NCBI RefSeq assembly: GCF_018326005.1
Contig: NZ_AP021903.1
Span: 3,567,501 to 3,631,500 of the forward strand
Origin: Pseudomonas sp. Seg1
GTDB taxonomy: Bacteria > Pseudomonadota > Gammaproteobacteria > Pseudomonadales > Pseudomonadaceae
Length of the DNA stretch: 64,000 nucleotides
Direction: 5' to 3'
Shown here: positions 16,144-43,194 of the stretch, piece after piece
Layout of the letters: each line of letters begins with the position of its first letter
Position numbering within the stretch: the first letter of the stretch is position 1
Made by a program: the position numbers and the translations under genes
Notes under the pieces: model-generated
What the model saw: only the letters and a program-made list of their open reading frames with translations
Database searches by the model: none
Told to the model about the DNA's origin: nothing

Positions 16144-16519
16144 TTCCCTGCTCCTCAAACTAAAAAGCCCCTGCGAATGCAGAGGCCCTGAATAGGTGCG
16201 CTCGTCTTTCCGAGCTGTCGGCCAAAGACCTTCTCAACGTCGACGCCCCTTTGCATCGATCTCGCTGATCCAGTCTCGCGCCACCCTGCAGCATTGTGAG
16301 GTCAGGGCGCGCGGGCTGCCGGTGTTTATCCGTAGCACTGCACTTGCCGGCTTATCAGTGTCCAGACCTCCCGAAGACCGCTCTGGCTGCGATGATTTTT
16401 AGGCAATAAAAAACCCGGCGCGGTGGCCGGGTTTCGGTTTTTCGAGAGTAAGTTGCCGGAGGCAAAACTCTAACAGTGGCGAAATCATGCCATGAGCCGC
16501 ACGGGAACGCAATAGGCCC
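16144..16519. promoter_or_regulatory. Early-late boundary: candidate PR'-like late promoter and leader
   Basis: This 376-base gap holds no gene. On the minus strand TTGCGT (16512-16507) and CATGAT (16489-16484) are separated by 17 bp and point towards the late genes. The terminator at 16411-16434 begins about 40 nt after the expected start site. Promoter followed at once by terminator is the layout of Q-dependent late promoters. The remainder, 16144-16400, shows no clear element apart from a short CCCCTGCGAATGCAGAGG hairpin near 16165. Confidence 0.5.
16405..16434 (-). terminator. tR'-like intrinsic terminator
   Basis: A 9-bp stem (AAACCCGGC / GCCGGGTTT) with a six-base loop is followed on the minus strand by TTTTTTATTG. 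It ends the early right operon and lies in the path of the candidate late promoter. Confidence 0.8.
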
Positions 16520-19757: not shown

Positions 19758-20532
19758 AGCTGCCGTCCTCCCGCATTTTCAGGCCGGAGGTGTAATCGCG
19801 GTCAGCGAAGCCGGTGTGGCGGGACTGCGGGAACGGGTGCACATTGCTGGCGACTTTCACTTCGTCTTCCCAGCGCTTGCCATTCAGCCATGTCGCTGGG
19901 TGGGGAATGAACTGCCCGCCATCCTTGACCCATGCCTCGCAAACGACTTGCGCAGCCAAGCCTTCAGCAATCTGGCCGAACAGGTCAGCAGTGACCTTGA
20001 GCTTCTTCCAGGCTTTTTCAGCTGCGGCCTTACCCTTCTTGTTCGGGTACATCTTCCAGAACTTCGGGAAGAGGTCATCCACCATCGGTGGAGTGTTGTT
20101 TGTATTCTTATCTGTATATGTATCTGTATCTTTATGGTTGCCATTTCGTTGCAACGAATCTTCAACGGTCGTTGAACGTTCGTTGAGTTCTAGTTGTTTT
20201 TTGAGGGCTTTTGCCCGTGCGGACGCCTTACCCGCGTTGGAGGCAGTGACGACTTTGCTGTTTACGGCCTCGAGATCTGCTTCGACGCGGAACTGCACCC
20301 AGTGCGTTTCCGTGACGTGGAAGAACTCACTCAACGTATCGGCAACGGAAGGCCAACGTTCGTTGGGAATCCGTGCGACGGTTGCGAGGCGATCGATGCG
20401 CAAAGGCTTGCCTGTCTGCCAGTAGCTGAACAGCAGGAGCATGTACGCGCCATGCTCCTCCGCAGTCAGGTGCGTGGTGTCGGCCAAGTAGTCGGCGACG
20501 TAGAACTGCATGTACGGAAGCGCGGCCATCAT
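19747..20532 (-). CDS. DUF1376 (YdaU-like) replication protein
   Basis: A 261-residue protein starting MMAALPYMQFYVADYLADT. The N-terminal DUF1376 domain has YVADYLADTTHLTAEEHGAY and YMLLLFSYW. The middle is low-complexity and Thr/Asn-rich, and the C-terminus has FWKMYPNKKGKAAAEKAWKKL and HPATWLNGKRW, seen in phage replication initiators. It acts with the DnaC-like loader and a phage origin is often inside such genes. ATGA overlap with the Rha gene sets the start at 20532. Confidence 0.88.
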   Translation of the reverse strand: MMAALPYMQFYVADYLADTTHLTAEEHGAYMLLLFSYWQTGKPLRIDRLATVARIPNERWPSVADTLSEFFHVTETHWVQFRVEADLEAVNSKVVTASNAGKASARAKALKKQLELNERSTTVEDSLQRNGNHKDTDTYTDKNTNNTPPMVDDLFPKFWKMYPNKKGKAAAEKAWKKLKVTADLFGQIAEGLAAQVVCEAWVKDGGQFIPHPATWLNGKRWEDEVKVASNVHPFPQSRHTGFADRDYTSGLKMREDGSYAL

Positions 20533-21281
20533 TCGACCCCCTTGAGATTGTGCTGAGCCCACAGGCCGGCAATCCAGTTGACGCCCTTGGGGGTGAATTT
20601 GGATTGGTTGTAGGCGTGGCCGCTGTCGCTGGTGCCGGCTTTGACTTCAAAGCGACCAGCGTCGATGTGAGGCTGATAGGCCTGCCACTCGCCGCCCATG
20701 CGATACATGATCTTTTTGTCGAGCAGGAACTCACGAAGGCGCGATTCGTTGGCCTTCAGGAGCTTCGCCACTTGGCGGAACCCCTTCAGCCCGGTTGACT
20801 CCACGTAGCGCTCAACGAAGGCAATCTTCGGCGCGGCCTCAATCAGGGCCTGATTGGCAGCCTGCTGAAGCTCGAACTGCTCAGCCCACGCGCGGGCGGC
20901 TGCGGCAGGATTGGAGAAGTCTGGGAGCCTGGCGAGAACCCGTGGCCCGTCGAGCTGTGCCTGCAGTTCATTGAGGCGCCGAATCACCTTGTGGCGCAGA
21001 GGAATGCTGTAGCCGGTCAACAAGGTCTCTGTCAGCTCCTTGTCCAACTCGAAAAGCGTGGTGTAACCACGACTGTCCTTGGTTTCTTGGACGTGGCTCA
21101 GATCTGAGCCATCTTTTTGCAACTCGTCGAGCATCTCGCGAATATCGCGGATGACGTTTTTGTGCAGCTTTCCAGTCAGCTCGGCGATCTCCGAACTACT
21201 CATGGTTACCGTGCGCGACACATTTTCCGAATTGAGAAAACGTGTCGTAGGGGTATTGCTGGCATGAGGTGAACTGTGCAT
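20529..21281 (-). CDS. Rha-family regulator with antirepressor (KilAC-type) C-terminus
   Basis: A 250-residue protein. Residues 25-110 are the Rha domain, with TMSSSEIAELTGKLHKNVIRDIREML and the YTTLFELDKELTETLLTGYS block. Residues 140-245 are an antirepressor-like domain with PKIAFVERYVEST, LKANESRLREFLLDKKIMYR and SKFTPKGVNWIAGL. Such fusions regulate lysogeny and lytic growth. The start at 21281 follows TGGAGC. The first codons coincide with an inverted repeat (21216-21247). Confidence 0.9.
   Translation of the reverse strand: MHSSPHASNTPTTRFLNSENVSRTVTMSSSEIAELTGKLHKNVIRDIREMLDELQKDGSDLSHVQETKDSRGYTTLFELDKELTETLLTGYSIPLRHKVIRRLNELQAQLDGPRVLARLPDFSNPAAAARAWAEQFELQQAANQALIEAAPKIAFVERYVESTGLKGFRQVAKLLKANESRLREFLLDKKIMYRMGGEWQAYQPHIDAGRFEVKAGTSDSGHAYNQSKFTPKGVNWIAGLWAQHNLKGVE
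21216..21247. repeat. Inverted repeat CGACAC-N20-GTGTCG in the 5' end of the Rha gene
   Basis: The outer arms CGACAC / GTGTCG are extended inward by TTTTC / GAAAA, giving a hairpin with an eight-base loop and one A-C mismatch. It is inside codons 12-22 of the Rha gene. The outer arms match those at 14.85 and 29.03 kb. Confidence 0.55.
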
Positions 21282-21814: not shown

Positions 21815-22018
21815 TTAGGCTGCAGAGCGCTTTGCGGATTGAACCGGGAATGGACGCAGCTCTTCAGCCGTGTAGGTCCCGTTTTCATGGGCAATGACGT
21901 ACACATCCCGACCGACTCGAAGAGCTTTGTTAAGAGCCCCCTGAGTCATTCCGAGAAGGATTGCGGTCTTGGTTTGCCCGTTTTTTTCCGCGAATTGGCA
22001 TAGCGGGATTCGGCTCAT
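21815..22018 (-). CDS. cro: Cro repressor
   Basis: A 67-residue protein starting MSRIPLCQFAEKNGQTKTAI. It aligns by eye with lambda Cro across the helix-turn-helix (GQTKTAILLGMTQGALNKAL) and the C-terminal strand (YTAEELRPFP). Cro binds the operators at 22049-22111 and shuts down cI and early transcription. GGAGGA lies seven bases before the ATG at 22018; the two codons upstream include another ATG that is too close to that site. Confidence 0.93.
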   Translation of the reverse strand: MSRIPLCQFAEKNGQTKTAILLGMTQGALNKALRVGRDVYVIAHENGTYTAEELRPFPVQSAKRSAA

Positions 22019-22046
22019 GGCCATTCCTCCGTGGTTCATGCGCCAA

Positions 22047-22116
22047 TTATTGCCTCGGGAATTGAAATAAATCAATGCCTGAGGAATTTGTTAGCTAATA
22101 CCTGCGGAAATACACT
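22047..22116. promoter_or_regulatory. Immunity operators OR1-OR3 with PR and PRM promoters
   Basis: Three imperfect palindromes of the form AATnCCTnnGGAATT lie at 22049-22063, 22074-22088 and 22097-22111, spaced 25 and 23 bp. PR (minus strand, towards cro) has TTGATT (22075-22070) and CAATAA (22052-22047) 17 bp apart. PRM (plus strand, towards cI) has TTGTTA (22088-22093) and TACACT (22111-22116) 17 bp apart. Operators overlap both promoters as in lambda. Confidence 0.88.
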
Positions 22117-22124
22117 CGCCCGCT

Positions 22125-22583
22125 ATGAGTAAAGAGAAGAGAAAGCTTGAAGATTGGGAGCTCGCAGAATGCGCAGCCCTAAAGGCCCTGGTACTCCAGG
22201 AGAATTTCTCGCGCCCAAAAGAAAAGCGGATTACCCAAGAAATGGCTGGGGCAGCCCTCGGCATGAATCAGGGCTCGTTCAGCAATTACTTGAATGGTCG
22301 ATTAGCTCTGAACAAGGACATAGCGGTAGGCATCTACAAGCTCTTCGGCATTCCAGCAGAGCTGTACAGCAAGCGACTGGCTGAAGAGATTGCTGATGTG
22401 GCAAAGATCTACACAGATAACGACTACCAAAAGAATGATCTGTATGCCCAAGCCAGCCCTGAGCACCGGATGGCTGTAGACGAAATGGCAAGCAGGATGC
22501 TGGGGATGACAGAGGAGCAAGCTCTGAAGCTCAAGCAGGCAATGGACCTATTGATGCCTAGTAATGACCCAAGAAAAAATTGA
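22125..22583 (+). CDS. CI-like repressor lacking the S24 cleavage domain
   Basis: A 152-residue protein starting MSKEKRKLEDWELAECAALK. The helix-turn-helix is EKRITQEMAGAALGMNQGSF (about 34-53), followed by SNYLNGRLALNKD. After residue 95 there is only an acidic helical tail (EHRMAVDEMASRMLGMTEEQA); the usual S24 peptidase with its Ala-Gly and Ser/Lys residues is absent. It maintains lysogeny by binding the nearby operators. The ATG lies eight bases after the PRM -10 box with no ribosome binding site, so the mRNA is probably leaderless, as for lambda cI from PRM. The 3' end overlaps the next gene by 20 nt. Confidence 0.85.
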   Translation: MSKEKRKLEDWELAECAALKALVLQENFSRPKEKRITQEMAGAALGMNQGSFSNYLNGRLALNKDIAVGIYKLFGIPAELYSKRLAEEIADVAKIYTDNDYQKNDLYAQASPEHRMAVDEMASRMLGMTEEQALKLKQAMDLLMPSNDPRKN

Positions 22584-23025
22584 TTACCCTCCCCTCCTCC
22601 CTGGTGGAATTCATGCCTTTACGCTTGAATCTCTCCGGTCTATAACCGTCGATAATTTCCCGAACTCTGTCCGAAGGCAGAGCCTGTTCGGCGCTCTTGG
22701 TATATACTTAGAGCTACTCGAAAGCACCGGTTTCAAAGGCTTTGCGTGGATCGACGGATCGTTCATGTGCGAAAAAGAAGAGCCTGATGATATCGATCTA
22801 GTCCTCGTTTTTGATTCCGAGGTAATCGATAACATTTCGGAATCTGCGCGCCCAGTCCTGAATGGACTTTTCGATACGCTTACCATTCTGAGTCGATTCA
22901 AGTTGCACGTATTCCAAGTCCGGGTCGAAGATGAGGCTGGTCTTGAATATTGGAAAAGGCAATTTGGAACTCAACGCGACGAGGTGACCCCTAAGGGTTT
23001 AGCCTCACTTGGAGTTAACCTATGA
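22564..23025 (+). CDS. DUF6932-type nucleotidyltransferase-like protein in the lysogenic operon
   Basis: A 153-residue protein starting MTQEKIDYPPLLPGGIHAFT. WIDGSFMCEKEEPDDIDLVL is the nucleotidyltransferase signature: Gly-Ser, then two acidic residues before the strand. This matches the small DUF6932 family. It starts inside the end of cI and its stop overlaps the next start (ATGA), so the three genes form one operon made in the lysogen. In lambda the same place holds rexAB. A role in superinfection exclusion or host defence is inferred from this position; the substrate is unknown. Confidence 0.75.
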   Translation: MTQEKIDYPPLLPGGIHAFTLESLRSITVDNFPNSVRRQSLFGALGIYLELLESTGFKGFAWIDGSFMCEKEEPDDIDLVLVFDSEVIDNISESARPVLNGLFDTLTILSRFKLHVFQVRVEDEAGLEYWKRQFGTQRDEVTPKGLASLGVNL

Positions 23026-23957
23026 CTGAGCAGGCAAATCGTATCGATTGGCTTGAGCGACAGCTTGCTCAGGTCAACCAATTCATCGATCGTGACACTC
23101 GAGCTCTCGAGTCAACGCCGGGAAAATATTCGCTCCAAATCGCTCTGAACTCGTGGCGCTCACATCAGGACGGGCTGCACCAGGAGTTGCGCCAAGCGAA
23201 GGCAGACCTTCAGCTGGAGGTAGTCCAGCTTAGGTTGATAGGTATGCGCATGGATGGGAGCATTCCGCTGAAGTTACTTAGTAAGCTCTCAGACTGCTTC
23301 AATCGCGCGCTGTCATATGCGGCCTATCACCTTCGCCATGGTTCTAATCCTAAGAGGGGCATACCAGAGAGCTTGGCTAGGGAAATGGATTTGAGGCTTT
23401 CCGATCTCGCATTTGGCTCTACCCGCCTAATATTTGCTGGAAATGTATCCCCGGATATGACTGGCGAGTCAATAATGGAAGGCGCGCTTGAGCAGATATT
23501 TGACGTCCTCAAGGCCCCTACAACTGATCGAATAAAAGAGCTTGTGTCTGTCATAGGGATTCCAGCGACGAAGGCGCTAAGTGACATGCTCGGAGCACTT
23601 GAGGCCAGCAAGATCGGTGCAGAGTTATCCTGGCCAGCCCCCAACTCAAAGATTTATCACTGGGGCGGAACTCTTGAGGCGGTACGCCTAACGCATGAGA
23701 GGCTCTCCGCACATCAGGACATTAAGCCGGAGCCCACAACGCTGTTTGGAGTGGTAGCAGACCTGAAGGAAAACGGAACCATTTATATCCGAAGCGGTGA
23801 CACAAAGCAGAAGGTGTCTTACAACCGACAACAATTTCCCGAGATACAGAAGCTAAGCCTCGGAATGCCTATCTCCATCAAGGTTATGAAATACGTGCGC
23901 TATGTTGCTTCGGAAGACCGCGAGATAGTTACGTACAAGATGATCACTGAGGACTGA
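23022..23957 (+). CDS. Unknown partner protein of the DUF6932 gene in the rex position
   Basis: A 311-residue protein starting MTEQANRIDWLERQLAQVNQ. Residues 1-75 are coiled coil. Residues 80-230 are helical, with a Gly/Ile-rich central part (SVIGIPATKALSDMLGALEAS). Residues 240-311 look like a small beta domain (TLFGVVADLKENGTIYIRSG, KVSYNRQQFPEI, VRYVASEDREIVTYK). No transmembrane segment is obvious. It overlaps the nucleotidyltransferase gene by 4 nt and is followed by a terminator. I do not recognise the full-length family. Confidence 0.7.
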   Translation: MTEQANRIDWLERQLAQVNQFIDRDTRALESTPGKYSLQIALNSWRSHQDGLHQELRQAKADLQLEVVQLRLIGMRMDGSIPLKLLSKLSDCFNRALSYAAYHLRHGSNPKRGIPESLAREMDLRLSDLAFGSTRLIFAGNVSPDMTGESIMEGALEQIFDVLKAPTTDRIKELVSVIGIPATKALSDMLGALEASKIGAELSWPAPNSKIYHWGGTLEAVRLTHERLSAHQDIKPEPTTLFGVVADLKENGTIYIRSGDTKQKVSYNRQQFPEIQKLSLGMPISIKVMKYVRYVASEDREIVTYKMITED

Positions 23958-23976
23958 CTGCTCCTCGCCCTCCCGG

Positions 23977-24001
23977 AAGCCCGCCATGAGCGGGCTTTTT
24001 T
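23977..24001 (+). terminator. Intrinsic terminator of the lysogenic operon
   Basis: An 8-bp stem AAGCCCGC / GCGGGCTT with a five-base loop is followed by a run of six T. It ends transcription of cI and the two genes behind it, just before PL. Confidence 0.9.
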
Positions 24002-24019: not shown

Positions 24020-24061
24020 ATTTCCTCAGGCATTGACGGCAATTAATTCCCCAGGCAATAT
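24020..24061 (+). promoter_or_regulatory. PL promoter with operators OL1 and OL2
   Basis: TTGACG (24033-24038) and CAATAT (24056-24061) are separated by 17 bp. Operator-like sequences ATTTCCTCAGGCATT (24020-24034) and AATTCCCCAGGCAAT (24045-24059), each differing by one base from a right-side operator in reverse complement, overlap the -35 and -10 boxes. The promoter drives the rightward early operon. The match in design to PR is very close. Confidence 0.9.
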
Positions 24062-24112
24062 TCATCCATCGCAGCGACACACAGCCACTGCGAAGGGCCT
24101 CAAGAGACCCGC

Positions 24113-26308: not shown

Positions 26309-26455
26309 ATGAACAACTCTCCTCGCTTGGCCGCCCAGTTCGACTGGAGGACGGTCGGCGCCTTCTCGCCCGAGCAGTTCAACGGCGAGCAGCGCAAAGA
26401 ATACGAAGACGAAGCCCGCCGCATCGAACAGCAGTGGGACAACCAACCGAACTGA
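26309..26455 (+). CDS. Small hypothetical protein (48 residues)
   Basis: A 48-residue acidic, soluble protein starting MNNSPRLAAQFDWRTVGAFS, lying seven bases after the preceding gene and eleven before the ATPase gene. Fits the operon chain; function not known. Confidence 0.55.
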   Translation: MNNSPRLAAQFDWRTVGAFSPEQFNGEQRKEYEDEARRIEQQWDNQPN

Positions 26456-26466
26456 GGAAACTCGCG

Positions 26467-26964
26467 ATGTTCAAGAAAGCCGAACGCAAGCAGGCCAAGC
26501 TACGGCTGGCACTTGCCGGGCCATCTGGATCAGGCAAAACCTACTCCGCCCTTCTGCTCGCACAGGGGATTGGCGGGCGAATCGCGGTGATCGACACCGA
26601 ACATGGCAGCGCATCGCTGTACGCGGACATCGCAGACTTCGACACGGTTGAACTGCATGCGCCCTACTCGCCCGAGCGCTACGTCGAAGCCATCATCGCC
26701 GCCGAGCAAGCCGGTTACAACGTCCTGATCATCGACAGCTACTCCCATGAGTGGACCGGCTCCGGCGGATGCCTCGAGGCGAACGAGAAGCTTGCCCACC
26801 AGAAATTCAAAGGCAACACCTGGGCGGCGTGGAACGAGACGACGCCGCGCCACCGGCGGCTGACCGACAAGATCCTGACCAGTTCGCTGCACATCATCTG
26901 CACCATGCGGAGCAAGACGGAAACGGTCCAGGGTGAAGGGAAAAAGATCCTCAGCTGGGCATGA
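26467..26964 (+). CDS. Sak4-like RecA-type ATPase, N-terminal part (frameshifted)
   Basis: A 165-residue protein starting MFKKAERKQAKLRLALAGPS, with Walker A GPSGSGKTYSALLLA and Walker B VLIIDSYSHEW. Phage proteins of this AAA_24/Sak4 type work with single-strand annealing proteins in recombination. The usual protein continues after GEGKKIL; here the frame ends at SWA-stop, and the continuation is in the next frame from 26961. One missing base near 26953 (CTCAGCTG where CTCAAGCTG would be expected) explains it. The break may be a mutation, an assembly error or a real split with ATGA coupling. Confidence 0.8.
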   Translation: MFKKAERKQAKLRLALAGPSGSGKTYSALLLAQGIGGRIAVIDTEHGSASLYADIADFDTVELHAPYSPERYVEAIIAAEQAGYNVLIIDSYSHEWTGSGGCLEANEKLAHQKFKGNTWAAWNETTPRHRRLTDKILTSSLHIICTMRSKTETVQGEGKKILSWA

Positions 26965-27332
26965 AGTCCGAGCAGCGCGACGGCACCGATTACGAGTTCA
27001 CGGTGGTTCTGGACCTGACCCACGACGGTCATACCGCCATGGCAAGCAAGGATCGGACGAAGCTTTTCGAAGAACCTGAGCTGATCACTGCTGAGACCGG
27101 CCGGCGGTTGCTGGCCTGGCTGAACTCTGGTGTGAGCCCTGAAGAGCGCGCCAAGGAGCTGTTGGTGGATGCCCTGGCTGATATCGCCTCAGCCAAGGAC
27201 ATGGCCTCTTTGCAATCGGCATTCAACGCGGCCAAGGCGATTGCCGTCGGCTTCGATGATCTCGTTCAGCAGGTCGTGGCCGCCAAAGACAAGCGCAAAA
27301 ACGAACTCTCCCCACAAAGGCAATCAGCATGA
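26961..27332 (+). CDS. Sak4-like ATPase, C-terminal part in the shifted frame
   Basis: A 123-residue frame starting MKSEQRDGTDYEFTVVLDLT, the sequence that normally follows the ATPase core of such proteins (block HDGHTAMASKDRTKLFEEP). The C-terminal half is helical (ELLVDALADIASAKDMASLQ). Its ATG overlaps the stop of the first part as ATGA, so it could be made by re-initiation. Both parts together have about 288 residues, normal for the family. Confidence 0.75.
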   Translation: MKSEQRDGTDYEFTVVLDLTHDGHTAMASKDRTKLFEEPELITAETGRRLLAWLNSGVSPEERAKELLVDALADIASAKDMASLQSAFNAAKAIAVGFDDLVQQVVAAKDKRKNELSPQRQSA

Positions 27333-38554: not shown

Positions 38555-39580
38555 TCAGTGGTTCACTCGGGGGAGTCTCATTACGAACTCACTTCCCTGC
38601 CCCTCTCCCGCACTAGTACCAATCACCGTTCCGCCGTGGGCTTCGATCAACTCACGCACTACGGTCAAACCAATACCCAGCCCTGCCCCATTGAAACCAA
38701 CCGCGTGAACATCCTGTACAAATGGCTCGAAAATGAACGGCAGTGCTTTCGGAGTTATACCTATCCCGGTATCACGAATGCGTATCTCCAGATGTTCGAC
38801 TTCAATCGTCGCAGTAAGGGAGACCGTGCCATCAGCAGGCGTATATTTGGCGGCGTTACCCAGTAGATTGCCAAGAATTTGAGCGAGGCGCGCTGGATCG
38901 CCATTAACCATCAATGCGCGTTCCGGCAGTTCCGAGCTGAAAGTCAAACCGTGAGCAACCATGACCGGGGCACAGGCATCTATCGCCTCATGAATGATTT
39001 GAGCCATATCGACACGTTGGCAATCAAGGCGAAACTTGCCGGTGCTGGCGCGGGCGATGTCGAGCAAGTCTTCGACCAACCGGGACATCTGCTTCACCTG
39101 CCCCTCTATCAACAACTGCATGCGCGGCAATTCTTCACTAGGTACACGTACCAGCCGGCCAGCAATCATGCTGATGGGGGTCAGAGGGTTGCGAAGTTCG
39201 TGTGCAACCAGGTTGAGGAAGTTGCGTTGCTGTTCCAGCGCATGTTCAGCGGCCGCCTGCAGTTCCTGGGCACTCAGTGCGGCTATCACCAACTGCTCGT
39301 TTGCCTCGCGCATCTCGAGGTACATTTGCTGCTCTGCCTGGGCCATTGTCGGATTTTCCGCATCCGACTGCGCCGACAGAATTGACAGCACCAACTGCTG
39401 ATTGGCTTCAATCAATTGCTCAACATGGTGACTATCGACGAGTTGGGCATTGGCCTGGTTGAGTTCCTTATGAACCGCTGCCAGCACCGCACGCGCCGCG
39501 ACCGTTTTCTGGCCGAGAAGGAACAGTTCGCGTGCTGCAGTCGCTATGGCTTGCTCATTCTTGCCGTGACCCTCGCTCAT
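38555..39580 (-). CDS. Sensor histidine kinase of the KaiC cluster
   Basis: A 341-residue soluble kinase. Residues 1-110 are coiled coil with repeated EANQQLVLSILSAQ-like units. The HisKA domain has NLVAHELRNPLTPISM with its His, and the ATPase domain has an N box (LGNLLGNAAKYTPADG), G1 (IRDTGIGI), F box (FIFEPF) and G2 (GAGLGIGL). No membrane segment, so it senses an internal signal, probably from the KaiC-like protein encoded 10 bases upstream. Its partner is likely the receiver at 43219. Confidence 0.92.
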   Translation of the reverse strand: MSEGHGKNEQAIATAARELFLLGQKTVAARAVLAAVHKELNQANAQLVDSHHVEQLIEANQQLVLSILSAQSDAENPTMAQAEQQMYLEMREANEQLVIAALSAQELQAAAEHALEQQRNFLNLVAHELRNPLTPISMIAGRLVRVPSEELPRMQLLIEGQVKQMSRLVEDLLDIARASTGKFRLDCQRVDMAQIIHEAIDACAPVMVAHGLTFSSELPERALMVNGDPARLAQILGNLLGNAAKYTPADGTVSLTATIEVEHLEIRIRDTGIGITPKALPFIFEPFVQDVHAVGFNGAGLGIGLTVVRELIEAHGGTVIGTSAGEGQGSEFVMRLPRVNH

Positions 39581-39590
39581 GATATTTCGC

Positions 39591-41051
39591 TCATCCTTCG
39601 AATGTGACCGTACGCTGCTGGGTAGGTCGCCCCCCTAACAAGCCTTCCCTGTCCGGCAACATTTCGCCGATCTGCAAGCCATCATCATCTATCTGGTACA
39701 ACCTCAGCTCATCAGAATGAGCGCTGGCCCGAACCTTGACCACGGCCATGATGCGCAACAAGCGGCTCTGCACTTCTATGTAGCGCTGGACGATGATGGC
39801 GTCGGTGAGAAACGCCGTGCCGTAAGGACTGAAACGCAGATCGGTGTAGCGATCCTCCAACTCGGAGGTCATCAATACACTGACACCTGCACTAGTAAGA
39901 GCGGTCACCATGCGAGACAGCGACTCACGAAAGTCTTCTCGAAATGTCGGGGCCAACGCCAGTTCGAAGCCTGACAGGGAGTCAATCACTACCCGTGTAG
40001 CCTTCAGCCGATTGATCTCACTCAATAGCAAATGGACGATTTCGTCGATGGATAAGTCCGGCGCGCGGCTATCGACCAAACCGACCTTCCCGCTCTCAAT
40101 CAACCCGGCGAGGGTGGCGTTCTGAGAGTGATTGGGGCGCTGCTCAAATACCGCGATCACGCCAGTCTCGCCATTGCGCGCACCCTCTGCGAGAAAGGTC
40201 GCAGCAAGAATGCTTTTGCCCGAGCCCGATGGCCCGGCCACCAGTAAGGAATAACCACGGGGCAAGCCGCCGCCGAGCATCTCATCGAGTTTGGGCACAC
40301 CCATTTTCAGGCGCTGGACCGGAAAGGTCAGAGGGGCTTCGATCGGGTTGAGTTGGGCAGGCGCAAAAACCTTGATGCCCGACGTTGCGATGCGGAAGGT
40401 GTGCAGCCCCGGCAGCGTCGGCTGGCCGCGCATCTTCATGATTTCCATCTTGCGCACCATGGAATTGCGCTGAACGCTCTGACGCAACCAGATAAGGCCA
40501 TCGGCGACAGTGAAAATCGGATTGGTGTCGGTTTCGCTGAAGTACTCGCCAATCAGGAAGGTTGTTGCCTGCCAAGTGGTCATCAGCATGCCCAGTTGCT
40601 GAACGAACTGCGGCAGATTGTTGTTCGGGTTGTCCTGTGTCTGGCTCGCAAGCACAACTGAACGAAACGAGTCGACGAACACCAGCGCCGGAGAGTGTGC
40701 CTCGACCTCAGCGACGATTCGGCGTAACACCTCATCCAAATCCCCTGCCAGGGTGTCACTGGCCAGGTTGATGTAACGGATCGACTGATTGATGGCTTCG
40801 TCGTCGAAAAAGTCGAATTGCTGTTGATACCGCAGCATTTTCAACGGCGGTTCGCCAAGCACGGTGAAGAACAATGCCGGGCGCTCGGGAGTCGCCAGGG
40901 CGAACATCATTTGATGCGCCAGGGTTGTTTTGCCACAGCCAGGCGGGCCGGCGATCAGGTTGAACGAGAACTCCGGCAACCCCCCGCCCAGCACCTCGTC
41001 CAGTCCTGGCACTCCGGTGGCCAAGCGCTTGATAGTCACTTTGGTGTTCAT
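39591..41051 (-). CDS. KaiC-like double RecA-domain ATPase (1)
   Basis: A 486-residue protein starting MNTKVTIKRLATGVPGLDEV, with AGGAAAA before the ATG. Two KaiC domains are present: Walker A AGPPGCGKTTLAHQM in the first, AGPSGSGKSILAATF in the second, and GLDEVLGGGLPEF / KLDEMLGGGLPRG before each. KaiC-like proteins outside cyanobacteria work in signalling with kinases and regulators and often autophosphorylate. The downstream kinase and the second KaiC-like gene support this. No KaiA or KaiB is seen. Confidence 0.92.
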   Translation of the reverse strand: MNTKVTIKRLATGVPGLDEVLGGGLPEFSFNLIAGPPGCGKTTLAHQMMFALATPERPALFFTVLGEPPLKMLRYQQQFDFFDDEAINQSIRYINLASDTLAGDLDEVLRRIVAEVEAHSPALVFVDSFRSVVLASQTQDNPNNNLPQFVQQLGMLMTTWQATTFLIGEYFSETDTNPIFTVADGLIWLRQSVQRNSMVRKMEIMKMRGQPTLPGLHTFRIATSGIKVFAPAQLNPIEAPLTFPVQRLKMGVPKLDEMLGGGLPRGYSLLVAGPSGSGKSILAATFLAEGARNGETGVIAVFEQRPNHSQNATLAGLIESGKVGLVDSRAPDLSIDEIVHLLLSEINRLKATRVVIDSLSGFELALAPTFREDFRESLSRMVTALTSAGVSVLMTSELEDRYTDLRFSPYGTAFLTDAIIVQRYIEVQSRLLRIMAVVKVRASAHSDELRLYQIDDDGLQIGEMLPDREGLLGGRPTQQRTVTFEG

Positions 41052-41482
41052 GGCGAGTTTTCCTGCGCAGATGTGTCGCTCAAAGAAGGTTTCCACACGT
41101 CACGAAGCAAGCGTGCGGTGAGCGAGGGCCCGATCAGGGTAGTGAGCAGTTCGTAGAAGGTGGTCAGAATCACTTCACCAAACAACAAGGCATCTGCTTC
41201 GCTTTCTGTAACGAGTTCAGAATTAAGAGCGCTCAGATCCAACGCTGTTTGCACACGTTCAGATATGTTGGCCAAGCGCGGCTGACGTGAGGCGCAGAGA
41301 TGAAGGCTGCGTCGATACAGAGCTGCAACCCCCTGCTGACCAATGATGGGGGTAAGTGCTGTGTGGATAGCCTCCAAAATCGAGACAGTCGCTAGCGCGA
41401 TGCACGCAGTATCAGCATTGGGGCCAACCCGGTGCGCCAGAGCAGCTACGATCTGGCGGCTCTCTTCGTTTAGCGCGGACAT
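41048..41482 (-). CDS. Hypothetical protein of the KaiC cluster
   Basis: From ATG 41482 a 144-residue helical protein, MSALNEESRQIVAALAHRVG. An upstream ATG at 41533 in the same frame would add 17 residues; neither start has a good ribosome site. Residues 30-70 and 110-140 are hydrophobic helices (TLIGPSLTARLLRDVW). It overlaps the KaiC-like gene by 4 nt and is the first gene of this operon. No family recognised; probably an accessory or sensor for the KaiC-like protein. Confidence 0.65.
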   Translation of the reverse strand: MSALNEESRQIVAALAHRVGPNADTACIALATVSILEAIHTALTPIIGQQGVAALYRRSLHLCASRQPRLANISERVQTALDLSALNSELVTESEADALLFGEVILTTFYELLTTLIGPSLTARLLRDVWKPSLSDTSAQENSP

Positions 41483-41751
41483 GGCTAGCTGATTTCTGAT
41501 GGGCAGGTCTCGATAGTACACCCTATATCGCATCGCAGAGACTCAATTGGCCAGAGAGCCTTCTTTACTTTCAATTCCTGTAATTTATCGACCATATTGA
41601 GGTTTTTGGGCTGCAGATTTAAGAGAATGAATAGCTTTACCGGCACTGCTGCGTGAAACGTCAGTGAAGTGTCGATAGCCCCAGCGCAGAAATGGCGTTA
41701 GCATCCTACGCATTCGGTTTAACAGCATGTTTTTCAGATCAGGGTCGCATT

Positions 41752-43194
41752 GTGGAAAAGTTGAATCGCCTTCAGAGTGGAATCGAAGGCCTGGATGCTC
41801 TGCTCAAGGGGGGGCTGGTCTCAGGTGCTTCCTACATTATTCAGGGGCGCCCAGGGTCTGGCAAAACCATCCTCGCCAACCAACTTGGATTCCATCATGC
41901 GCGCAACGGCGGCCGTGTTCTGGTAGCGACACTCCTTGCCGAATCCCATGACCGACTTTTTCAATTTCTGTCCACCTTGAGTTTTTTCGACTCGTCTAAA
42001 GTTGGCGCTGAAATCCAGTTCGTCAGCGCATTCGATACCCTGGAAAACGAAGGCCTGGATGAAGTGGTTAAACTGCTGAGGCGTGAGATCAGCCGACAGA
42101 AGGCCACGGTCATGGTCGTGGACGGCTTGCTCAACGCGCGTTCCAAAGCCGACTCGCCAATCGACACCAAGAAGTTCATCTCTGAACTGCAAGGCCACGC
42201 CGCATTTGCCGGGTGCACCGTATTGTTTCTCACCAGTTCCCGACTGGATGACGGCAGCCCCGAACACACCATGGTTGATGGTGTGATCGAAATGGGAGAA
42301 GAGCTTTATGGCACACGCTCGGTGCGTCGTATTCAACTGCGTAAAACTCGTGGTAGTCCAGCACTGACCGGACTGCACGAGTGCGAGATCACCGAGAACG
42401 GTCTGGTGGTTTATCCGCGCCTGGAAAGCCTCTACAGCCACCCTACTTCGCCCGATAGCGCCAACATGACGCGTATCCCCAGTGGCATTCGTTCACTCGA
42501 TGCCATATTGGGTGGCGGGTTGCACAGTTCCAGTGTGACCTTGGTCATAGGCCCGTCAGGAATCGGCAAGACGACGCTGGGTCTCAAGTTCCTGAGTGAG
42601 TCGACGGTGGAGGCACCGGGCCTGCATTTTGGTTTTTATGAAAGCCCGGAGCGGTTACGCCTGAAGGGTCAATCACTCGGGATCGACATCAAAAGCATGG
42701 AAGAAAGCGGTGCGTTGAGCATCGCCTGGCAACCAACCACCGAAGGTCTCCTGGACGGCCTGGGCGCAAGACTGTTGAGCCTCGTTGAAGAAAAGGGCAT
42801 CAAGCGGTTATTCATCGACAGCCTGAGCGGTATGACACGGGTCTCGACGAATCCGGCCCGAATTACTGACTTCTACAGTGCACTCATGAACGAACTGCGC
42901 TCCAGGGGCGTGACAGTTTTTGCTTCCTGGGAAATGCGTGATCTGTTCGGGTCCGAGGTCAGCGCGCCGAACTCTGATCTTTCCAGCATCGTCGATAATC
43001 TGATGCTGATGCGCTTCTACGAGAATCATTCTGAACTAAGCAGGACTATTTCCATTCTGAAAGTAAGAGATAGCTCTTATGACCCTTCGCGATTTGAAGT
43101 GGTCATCCGTGACCAAGACGTTGATCTGAAAAAGGCTTCAAGAAATGAACCGCCAGTTTCTATTCCTACAGCGCTGCCAGGTTCATCTTCCTAG
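41752..43194 (+). CDS. KaiC-like double RecA-domain ATPase (2)
   Basis: A 480-residue protein from a GTG at 41752 (VEKLNRLQSGIEGLDALLKG) with AGGG seven bases before. An ATG at 41692 would add 20 non-conserved residues. Walker A motifs are QGRPGSGKTILANQL and IGPSGIGKTTLGLKF. It is divergent from the first KaiC-like operon and followed by a response regulator 24 bases on. The two KaiC proteins are only distantly alike, so they are probably not a recent duplication. Confidence 0.9.
   Translation: MEKLNRLQSGIEGLDALLKGGLVSGASYIIQGRPGSGKTILANQLGFHHARNGGRVLVATLLAESHDRLFQFLSTLSFFDSSKVGAEIQFVSAFDTLENEGLDEVVKLLRREISRQKATVMVVDGLLNARSKADSPIDTKKFISELQGHAAFAGCTVLFLTSSRLDDGSPEHTMVDGVIEMGEELYGTRSVRRIQLRKTRGSPALTGLHECEITENGLVVYPRLESLYSHPTSPDSANMTRIPSGIRSLDAILGGGLHSSSVTLVIGPSGIGKTTLGLKFLSESTVEAPGLHFGFYESPERLRLKGQSLGIDIKSMEESGALSIAWQPTTEGLLDGLGARLLSLVEEKGIKRLFIDSLSGMTRVSTNPARITDFYSALMNELRSRGVTVFASWEMRDLFGSEVSAPNSDLSSIVDNLMLMRFYENHSELSRTISILKVRDSSYDPSRFEVVIRDQDVDLKKASRNEPPVSIPTALPGSSS

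Follow-up and report, generated by a model that had tools for sequence, protein, structure and literature searches.

A repressor-linked gene pair, M63AB, in a lambdoid Pseudomonas prophage as a possible phage exclusion system

Introduction

What do two genes that directly follow the repressor of a lambdoid prophage do for the bacterium that carries them? We pursued this question for M63A and M63B, a predicted nucleotidyltransferase (NTase) gene and its partner, in a stretch of 64,000 nucleotides (nt) from Pseudomonas sp. Seg1 (contig NZ_AP021903.1, positions 3,567,501 to 3,631,500), which we refer to as the window. In phage lambda, rexAB sits between the operators OR and OL, and a preliminary description of the window had likened the place of the pair to that of rexAB and proposed an undescribed exclusion or defence system. 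We find that the pair lies between OR- and OL-like sites and is inherited together in phages of several host groups, and we tentatively suggest that M63AB is a phage exclusion or abortive-infection system in which M63B is the sensor and M63A the effector.

Identity and co-conservation of the pair

Both proteins belong to families that are already catalogued. M63A matches DUF6932 (PF22014, E 1.1e-27), phrog_9194 (E 1.4e-49) and the PADLOC model PDC-M63A (PDLC04744, E 1.5e-42, residues 5-152), while M63B matches PDC-M63B (PDLC04750, E 6.6e-137, residues 1-311), with six M63B models matching in all, and phrog_6603 (E 3.7e-121); both phrogs are families of unknown function. Pfam gave no match for M63B at E<=1 and NCBIfam none for either protein. 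The earlier statement that M63B matches no family therefore has to be corrected, although its families are without known function. The word "undescribed" cannot be kept either, since the pair is listed in PADLOC-DB of 2023 as candidate PDC-M63 (PDC-M63A/B), where PDC stands for phage defence candidate (excerpt of PMC11514479). Both window proteins match these models over their full length and in the same gene order, and no structural difference separates the entry from the window pair; the entry itself carries no function or description, and no published function for PDC-M63 or DUF6932 was found in the literature searched, which left most subscription papers and all preprints outside.

A scan of viral contigs with an M63A profile recovered 79 loci with 61 distinct M63A proteins. 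Directly downstream of the NTase, an M63B-like frame was present in 77 of the 79 after iteration (76/79 with the first profile), and the two frames overlapped by exactly 4 nt in 66/79 (counted by script). Because 6 of the 28 rows of the profile came from loci first found through M63B, this pairing is not wholly blind. The scan with M63B returned 34 viral and 2 genome loci, with an NTase frame in 33/36 (by script); the remaining three (L024, L025 and L031) are the contigs of L087, L090 and L091, where the NTase was found, its frame being frameshifted in L087. Across 59 three-gene loci the pairwise distances of M63A and M63B correlated at r 0.962, compared with 0.588 for M63A and the repressor and 0.627 for M63B and the repressor, and none of these values was reached in 500 permutations. 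An absence of co-conservation outside one phage group, which the preliminary description had named as evidence that would count against its proposal, is thus not what we observed, the pairing extending to enteric phages and a Streptococcus satellite phage.

The pair also keeps its place. An upstream plus-strand open reading frame (ORF) was found in 76 of the 79 viral NTase loci, and the 68 distinct proteins encoded there matched the phrog_4 transcriptional repressor in 54 cases, the helix-turn-helix (HTH) family HTH_3 in 45 and Peptidase_S24 in 25. Of the 58 loci in which the test could be made, 33 have an OR/OL-like inverted repeat enclosing repressor and cassette (0/100 shuffles each) and 25 did not pass. 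The same gene order was seen in mEpX1, Erwinia phage 59, PhiR30_1 and a Klebsiella prophage-bearing plasmid. The Streptococcus satellite phage Javan304 encodes a DNA-binding protein and an NTase together with a relative of M63B, which the iterated profile matched at 9e-23 in hmmsearch and which scored 97.2% in hhalign (0.8% when reversed), and Streptococcus phage MissE1 has the NTase with no M63B behind it. In the mycobacterial prophage prophiGD21-3 a repressor, an NTase and a 292-residue gene are joined by 4-nt overlaps; partners of this type gave hmmsearch E 0.06-0.15 and hhalign 11.5% against M63B, at which level kinship is not established. Among 5426 E. coli genomes the PhiR30-type pair occurs in 96 (94 over at least 80% of the length) and the mEpX1-type pair in 18, while single-gene searches gave 97/5426 for M63A and 97/5426 for M63B, as two lists that were not matched to each other.

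Mobility of the cassette and selection on its genes

Nine enteric loci encode M63A proteins that are 98-100% identical and M63B proteins that are 99-100% identical, beside repressors of seven clusters (60% identity), with 34 of the 36 repressor pairs at most 50% alike. The matching DNA is at least 98.8% identical in 30/36 pairs, in most of which it begins 150-176 nt before M63A and stops approximately 30-45 nt after M63B (in most pairs about -175..+1450, with A..B set at 0..1408); in the other six pairs the match is longer, at 94-98.5%. On this comparison of sequences M63AB looks like mobile cargo and not the partner of one repressor, as near-identical cassettes stand beside seven repressor clusters. 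A leader element common to all enteric cassettes, such as an aba-like signal, was sought by alignment with no clear result.

In the window-type clade the overlap between cassette and repressor measures 20 or 23 nt in 24/24 viral loci. Compared with the window repressor (22125-22583), five relatives (L086, L088, L084, L089 and L091) conserve the C-terminal ~50 residues and differ in the HTH part; a tail that travels with the cassette, combined with an HTH part that changes, points to a recombination joint inside the repressor gene. At L164:4947-6290 a related repressor N-terminus is combined with an S24 peptidase, and the slot, which is without M63AB, is occupied by a toxin-antitoxin-like set, namely a RelE/HigB-like gene, one of HTH type and a third of 142 residues (by eye), with only HTH-type matches in PADLOC.

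Purifying selection acts on both genes. Between the window and L010, the ratio of nonsynonymous to synonymous substitution rates (dN/dS) is 0.089 for M63A and 0.033 for M63B, which argues that these ORFs are not chance; values of 0.03-0.1 were obtained where synonymous sites were unsaturated, and saturation left many of the comparisons without a value.

Operators, promoters and terminator

In the window the three ORFs lie on the same strand, the repressor overlapping M63A by 20 nt and M63A overlapping M63B by 4 nt, as had been reported from the letters alone; the range then given for a two-gene module, 22125-23957, in fact begins at the repressor gene. The repressor has weak HTH matches (phrog_4 E 2.2e-6; both Pfam HTH matches below the cut-off) and no S24 peptidase match. 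A 39-nt inverted repeat (22048-22086 versus 24022-24060, 79%) brackets repressor and cassette, and its local alignment score of 23 compares with 15 for the best of 200 dinucleotide shuffles. Each side contains two 12-nt sites, with an equal spacing of 25 nt in the OR-like and OL-like pairs (Table 1), and the promoter-like matches overlapping both pairs point outward. Searched over the whole window with 2 mismatches, the plain operator 12-mer occurs 8 times against 6.3 expected, which is chance level; a degenerate pattern occurs 4 times against 1.23 expected, a count reached in 3/100 shuffles, but it was built from the very sites that it scores, and the weight therefore rests on the inverted repeat. 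By these signals the interval of repressor and M63AB has the OR/OL layout of lambdoid phages, in agreement with the rexAB-like place proposed for the pair.

The candidate PRM promoter agrees with the consensus at 8/12 positions and is unlisted by the promoter scanner. Beyond M63B, the hairpin that we regard as the likely terminator is unlisted by the consensus scanner, and the 55-nt stretch around it folds at -17.9 kcal/mol (z -1.59), with 11/200 shuffles folding equally well. Taken together, the PRM-like promoter, the OR/OL layout and the hairpin make it likely that M63AB is co-transcribed with the repressor in the lysogen. Expression from PRM, as first described, is upheld to this extent, the promoter itself being a candidate read by eye; of the "strong terminator" the hairpin and T-run stand, and the adjective was a judgement by eye.

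Predicted folds

The structure model of M63A (predicted local distance difference test, pLDDT, 93.4) has minimal pol-beta NTases as its fold neighbours, and the features by which the pol-beta NTase superfamily is recognised, hG[GS] and DxD motifs with an NTase fold, are present in the protein. The NTase signature noted earlier is borne out by the motif DGSF...PDDIDL and the DUF6932 match, with one caution: while G65-S66, D76 and D78 are kept in the active site, the third metal-binding acid is replaced by His115, which rules out a canonical pol-beta active site for the window protein. This position is Asp in 35, His in 20 and Glu in 1 of the 61 distinct relatives, among which K71 (60/61), G145 (60/61) and K144 (59/61) are conserved. 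We predict from the model that M63A is a minimal pol-beta NTase with a variant third metal-binding position. Sequence searches of solved structures gave no match for M63A and four chance-level matches for its profile, and a search of a viral fold library gave nothing at E<=0.001.

The M63B model (pLDDT 85.8) comprises a putative coiled coil at residues 3-63, formed by predicted helices 3-31 and 36-63, an unassigned middle domain at ~65-230 and an OB fold at 235-309, consistent with the coiled coil and C-terminal beta domain described beforehand; its fold list is dominated by coiled-coil and OB rows. Against solved structures the M63B sequence had one meaningless match (E 1.2) and its profile none at E<=10. 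The viral fold library returned a DUF6575 protein (A0A8S5QA00, E 6.9e-12) and a protein of Leptospira phage LE1 (Q6NE06, E 1.7e-8), and DUF6575 is named among the domains of experimentally found defence systems (excerpt of PMC9519451). We do not claim M63B as a DUF6575 member, as both matches have TM-scores of 0.33-0.43 and root-mean-square deviations >14. No His column reaches at least 90% in 34 M63B sequences, and hence there is no HEPN R-x4-6-H motif; nor do Kyte-Doolittle maxima over 19 residues (0.86 for M63A, 1.26 for M63B) reveal a membrane-type hydrophobic peak.

Chromosomal sister pairs and other contexts of DUF6932

DUF6932 occurs in 17/298 Pseudomonas genomes, where it is followed by M63B in 4, by a diverged partner in 7 and by neither in 6. 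In a sample of the class it occurs in 5/369 genomes: besides the window's own, L067 has a sister-type partner, and no partner was found in the stretch examined of the other three. The sister pairs (L044, L045, L048, L049, L050, L053 and L054) resemble M63AB in that a DUF6932 NTase precedes a coiled-coil protein of ~300 residues, and differ from it in that their sequences have diverged and most stand alone in the chromosome. By profile comparison the sister partner is a distant relative of M63B (hhalign 89.7%, E 1.9e-6 over 243 columns, and 91.2% in a rerun; hmmsearch 1.2e-7 to 2.7e-5), with controls that gave 0.5% for the reversed profile and never exceeded 0.5% when the columns were shuffled 10 times. 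The L049 pair lies behind what looks by eye like an S24 repressor of phage type, and among seven 15-kb sister stretches there is one prophage with an S24 repressor before the pair (L170).

DUF6932 was also seen in other company. At L046:203-1995 a DUF6932 protein (178 residues, minus strand) overlaps the start of a PADLOC PD-Lambda-2_B match (E 4e-81), so that the domain may serve in other defence-type operons. It is fused to an alpha/beta-hydrolase-like C-terminal part at L055:1420-2676, which has a weak Ser_hydrolase match, and at L056:763-1944, judged by eye, and in L057 and L058 the gene adjoins one with a Fic-like motif (by eye).

Possible function and its alternatives

The slot, the mobility of the cassette, the selection on its genes and the PADLOC listing are our reasons for the exclusion or abortive-infection role, which we regard as possible. 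The cI-N interval is a known site of rexAB and bstA (excerpt of PMC8585504), and in P. putida a system of RexAB type, encoded close to a prophage repressor, provides defence (excerpt of PMC12894663). The order of sensor and effector is suggested by the folds that the structure models predict and by a small asymmetry of damage. M63A is damaged and M63B intact in L087 (the frameshift, on a metagenome contig), in KL53, where an insertion sequence takes the start of M63A, and in OkiPb01716, where one lies at its very end; the reverse, a damaged M63B with an intact M63A, was seen at none of the loci looked at, the E. coli genomes having been inspected in part. The two E. coli prophages with an insertion sequence in or at the end of M63A and an intact M63B are at L181:1779-3319 and L180:1798-4461.

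Under such a scheme M63B would dimerise via its coiled coil and use its OB fold to recognise a foreign phage in the course of replication, by either a nucleic-acid structure or an SSB-like signal. Recognition would set M63A free or direct its action, and M63A would then attach a nucleotide to some target of the host or the phage, bringing phage production to a halt. The resident phage might escape because induction silences the whole operon, repressor included, or alternatively by means of a self-immunity element in its own DNA, comparable to that of BstA. Two results weigh against an exclusion role. In the one published deletion that we found, removal of the native PDC-M63AB pair from E. coli NILS69 made no measurable difference to how 10 phages plated or lysed liquid cultures (excerpt of PMC12409345), the test collection consisting, according to its authors, of virulent double-stranded DNA phages (same excerpt). 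Moreover, apart from the prophage, the sister stretches hold mostly housekeeping-type genes, and most of the chromosomal pairs lie outside any visible defence island, as judged by eye and with no island scan.

It is also conceivable, if rather doubtful, that such pairs constitute a class of prophage immunity in which a cassette of 1.5 kb, able to settle behind any repressor, would supply a sensor with an OB fold and an effector that transfers nucleotides; upon encountering foreign single-stranded DNA it would tag a replication target and so stop competing temperate phages. To go by the loci recovered, such a class would span Pseudomonas, enterics and Streptococcus satellites, with the NTase also in mycobacterial prophages. 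If M63AB acts against temperate competitors, nucleotidyltransferase chemistry would join the means by which prophages fight one another, and a PADLOC candidate whose name already appears in the output of annotation pipelines would be explained. Whatever its role, a cassette swapped between unrelated immunity types under strong purifying selection probably does something that the lysogen needs. New here are the position of the pair between OR and OL across many immunity types and the swapping of repressors around a constant cassette, together with the diverged sister pairs and a fold assignment that includes the variant His115.

One may postulate instead a toxin-antitoxin-like arrangement in which M63B is toxic or inhibitory and is restrained by nucleotidylation through M63A, as HepT is by MntA, thereby keeping the prophage or aborting infection. 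We think this unlikely, given that M63B lacks a conserved His column, the HEPN R-x4-6-H motif and a HEPN Pfam match, and that in the three natural cases described above M63B is intact while M63A is damaged, although polar effects may silence M63B there. Another scenario that we would not expect to hold is that the pair is lysogenic-conversion cargo with no defence role, adjusting host RNA, DNA repair or protein activity for the prophage. The negative NILS69 test (PMC12409345, in the excerpt cited) would fit it, as would the several sister pairs that stand alone among chromosomal housekeeping-type genes. OB and NTase folds are, in addition, common in RNA and DNA metabolism. Set against this are the near-exclusive position of the pair in the exclusion slot, in phages of several host groups, and the fact that no link to a host pathway was found.

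Two further possibilities appear to us very improbable. M63AB might have a core lysogeny function and aid the repressor or the lysis-lysogeny switch, to which the 20-23 nt overlap in all 24 window-type loci, their common repressor C-terminal tail and the likely co-transcription with the repressor would lend themselves; near-identical cassettes beside seven repressor clusters make such a role for M63B unlikely, however, and L164 pairs a related repressor N-terminus with other genes in the slot. Alternatively, M63A of the window clade might be a catalytically dead NTase that binds nucleotide as a regulatory subunit of M63B, given that the third acidic position is occupied by His in 20/61 distinct relatives, which retain GS and DxD. 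The near-invariance of K71, K144 and G145 (59-60/61) argues otherwise, His might act as a base, and some NTases are active despite variation at the third position.

Relation to known systems

Like RexAB, M63AB consists of two genes behind a repressor, a putative sensor and a putative effector, and it occupies the OR-OL position. The RexB-type partner is a membrane protein, however, as described for the P. putida RexAB-type system PP_5643-5644 (excerpt of PMC12894663), and for lack of such a partner in M63AB we reject RexAB membership. The M63B profile had no RexA match by sequence in the PDB (E<=10), and RexA did not appear among the M63B fold rows listed, an absence that carries no weight as evidence. 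BstA of prophage BTP1 and its relatives is likewise an abortive-infection gene behind cI with conserved synteny (excerpt of PMC8585504), but is one gene with an aba DNA element, whereas M63AB is two genes of other families. MNT-HEPN (MntA-HepT) has a minimal NTase of related fold beside a second gene, and we reject membership as M63B is not a HEPN protein. Membership of AbiE or CBASS finds no support either, DUF6932 being the sole Pfam match of M63A at E<=1 and PDC-M63A its sole PADLOC match.

Other features of the window

The genes around the cassette are of lambdoid type (Table 1).

Table 1 Features of the prophage in the window, with the basis of each call.
Feature	Position	Strand	Basis or remark
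Terminase, portal and head genes	7.3-13.5 kb		
DnaC-like loader and replication protein	18.9-20.6 kb		
Cro, divergent from repressor	21815-22075	-	PF09048 9.5e-20
PR-like promoter for cro	22075-22046	-	Promoter scanner; overlaps OR-like pair
OR-like operator pair	22050-22086 (sites 22050-22061, 22075-22086)	-	Mirror image of OL pair
Candidate PRM promoter (TTGTTA, 17 nt, TACACT)	22088-22116	+	By eye; 9 nt before repressor ATG
HTH phage repressor (cI-like), 152 residues	22125-22583	+	ORF call and weak HTH matches
M63A (DUF6932), 153 residues	22564-23025	+	ORF call and family matches
M63B, 311 residues	23022-23957	+	ORF call and family matches
Hairpin and T-run, likely intrinsic terminator of repressor-M63AB operon	23975-24001	+	10-bp stem
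OL-like operator pair	24022-24058 (sites 24022-24033, 24047-24058)	+	Inverted repeat
PL-like promoter	24033-24062	+	Promoter scanner; with OL-like pair
Exonuclease	27.3 kb		
DNA methyltransferase	34 kb		
Integrase	36.6-37.6 kb		

On the cro side lies a gene for a Rha/KilAC antirepressor-type protein (20529-21281; Pfam ANT 1.5e-24, Phage_pRha 1.1e-10), and a Proteo-phage-1 RNA (RF03044, E 5.1e-12) is found between replication and late genes at 16314-16392 on the minus strand. A RecA/Sak4-like gene at 26434-27332 is split in two frames (176 and 123 residues, 4-nt overlap), the first of which corresponds to phrog_1366 over the N-terminal half of that family. Adjoining the integrase end of the prophage (38555-43194, by eye) are one histidine kinase-like and two KaiC-like ORFs. 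Outside the prophage, a C4 antisense RNA with a1/b1 targets (RF01695, RF03163; 56652-56842, minus strand) likely marks the remains of a second, P1/P4-type element.
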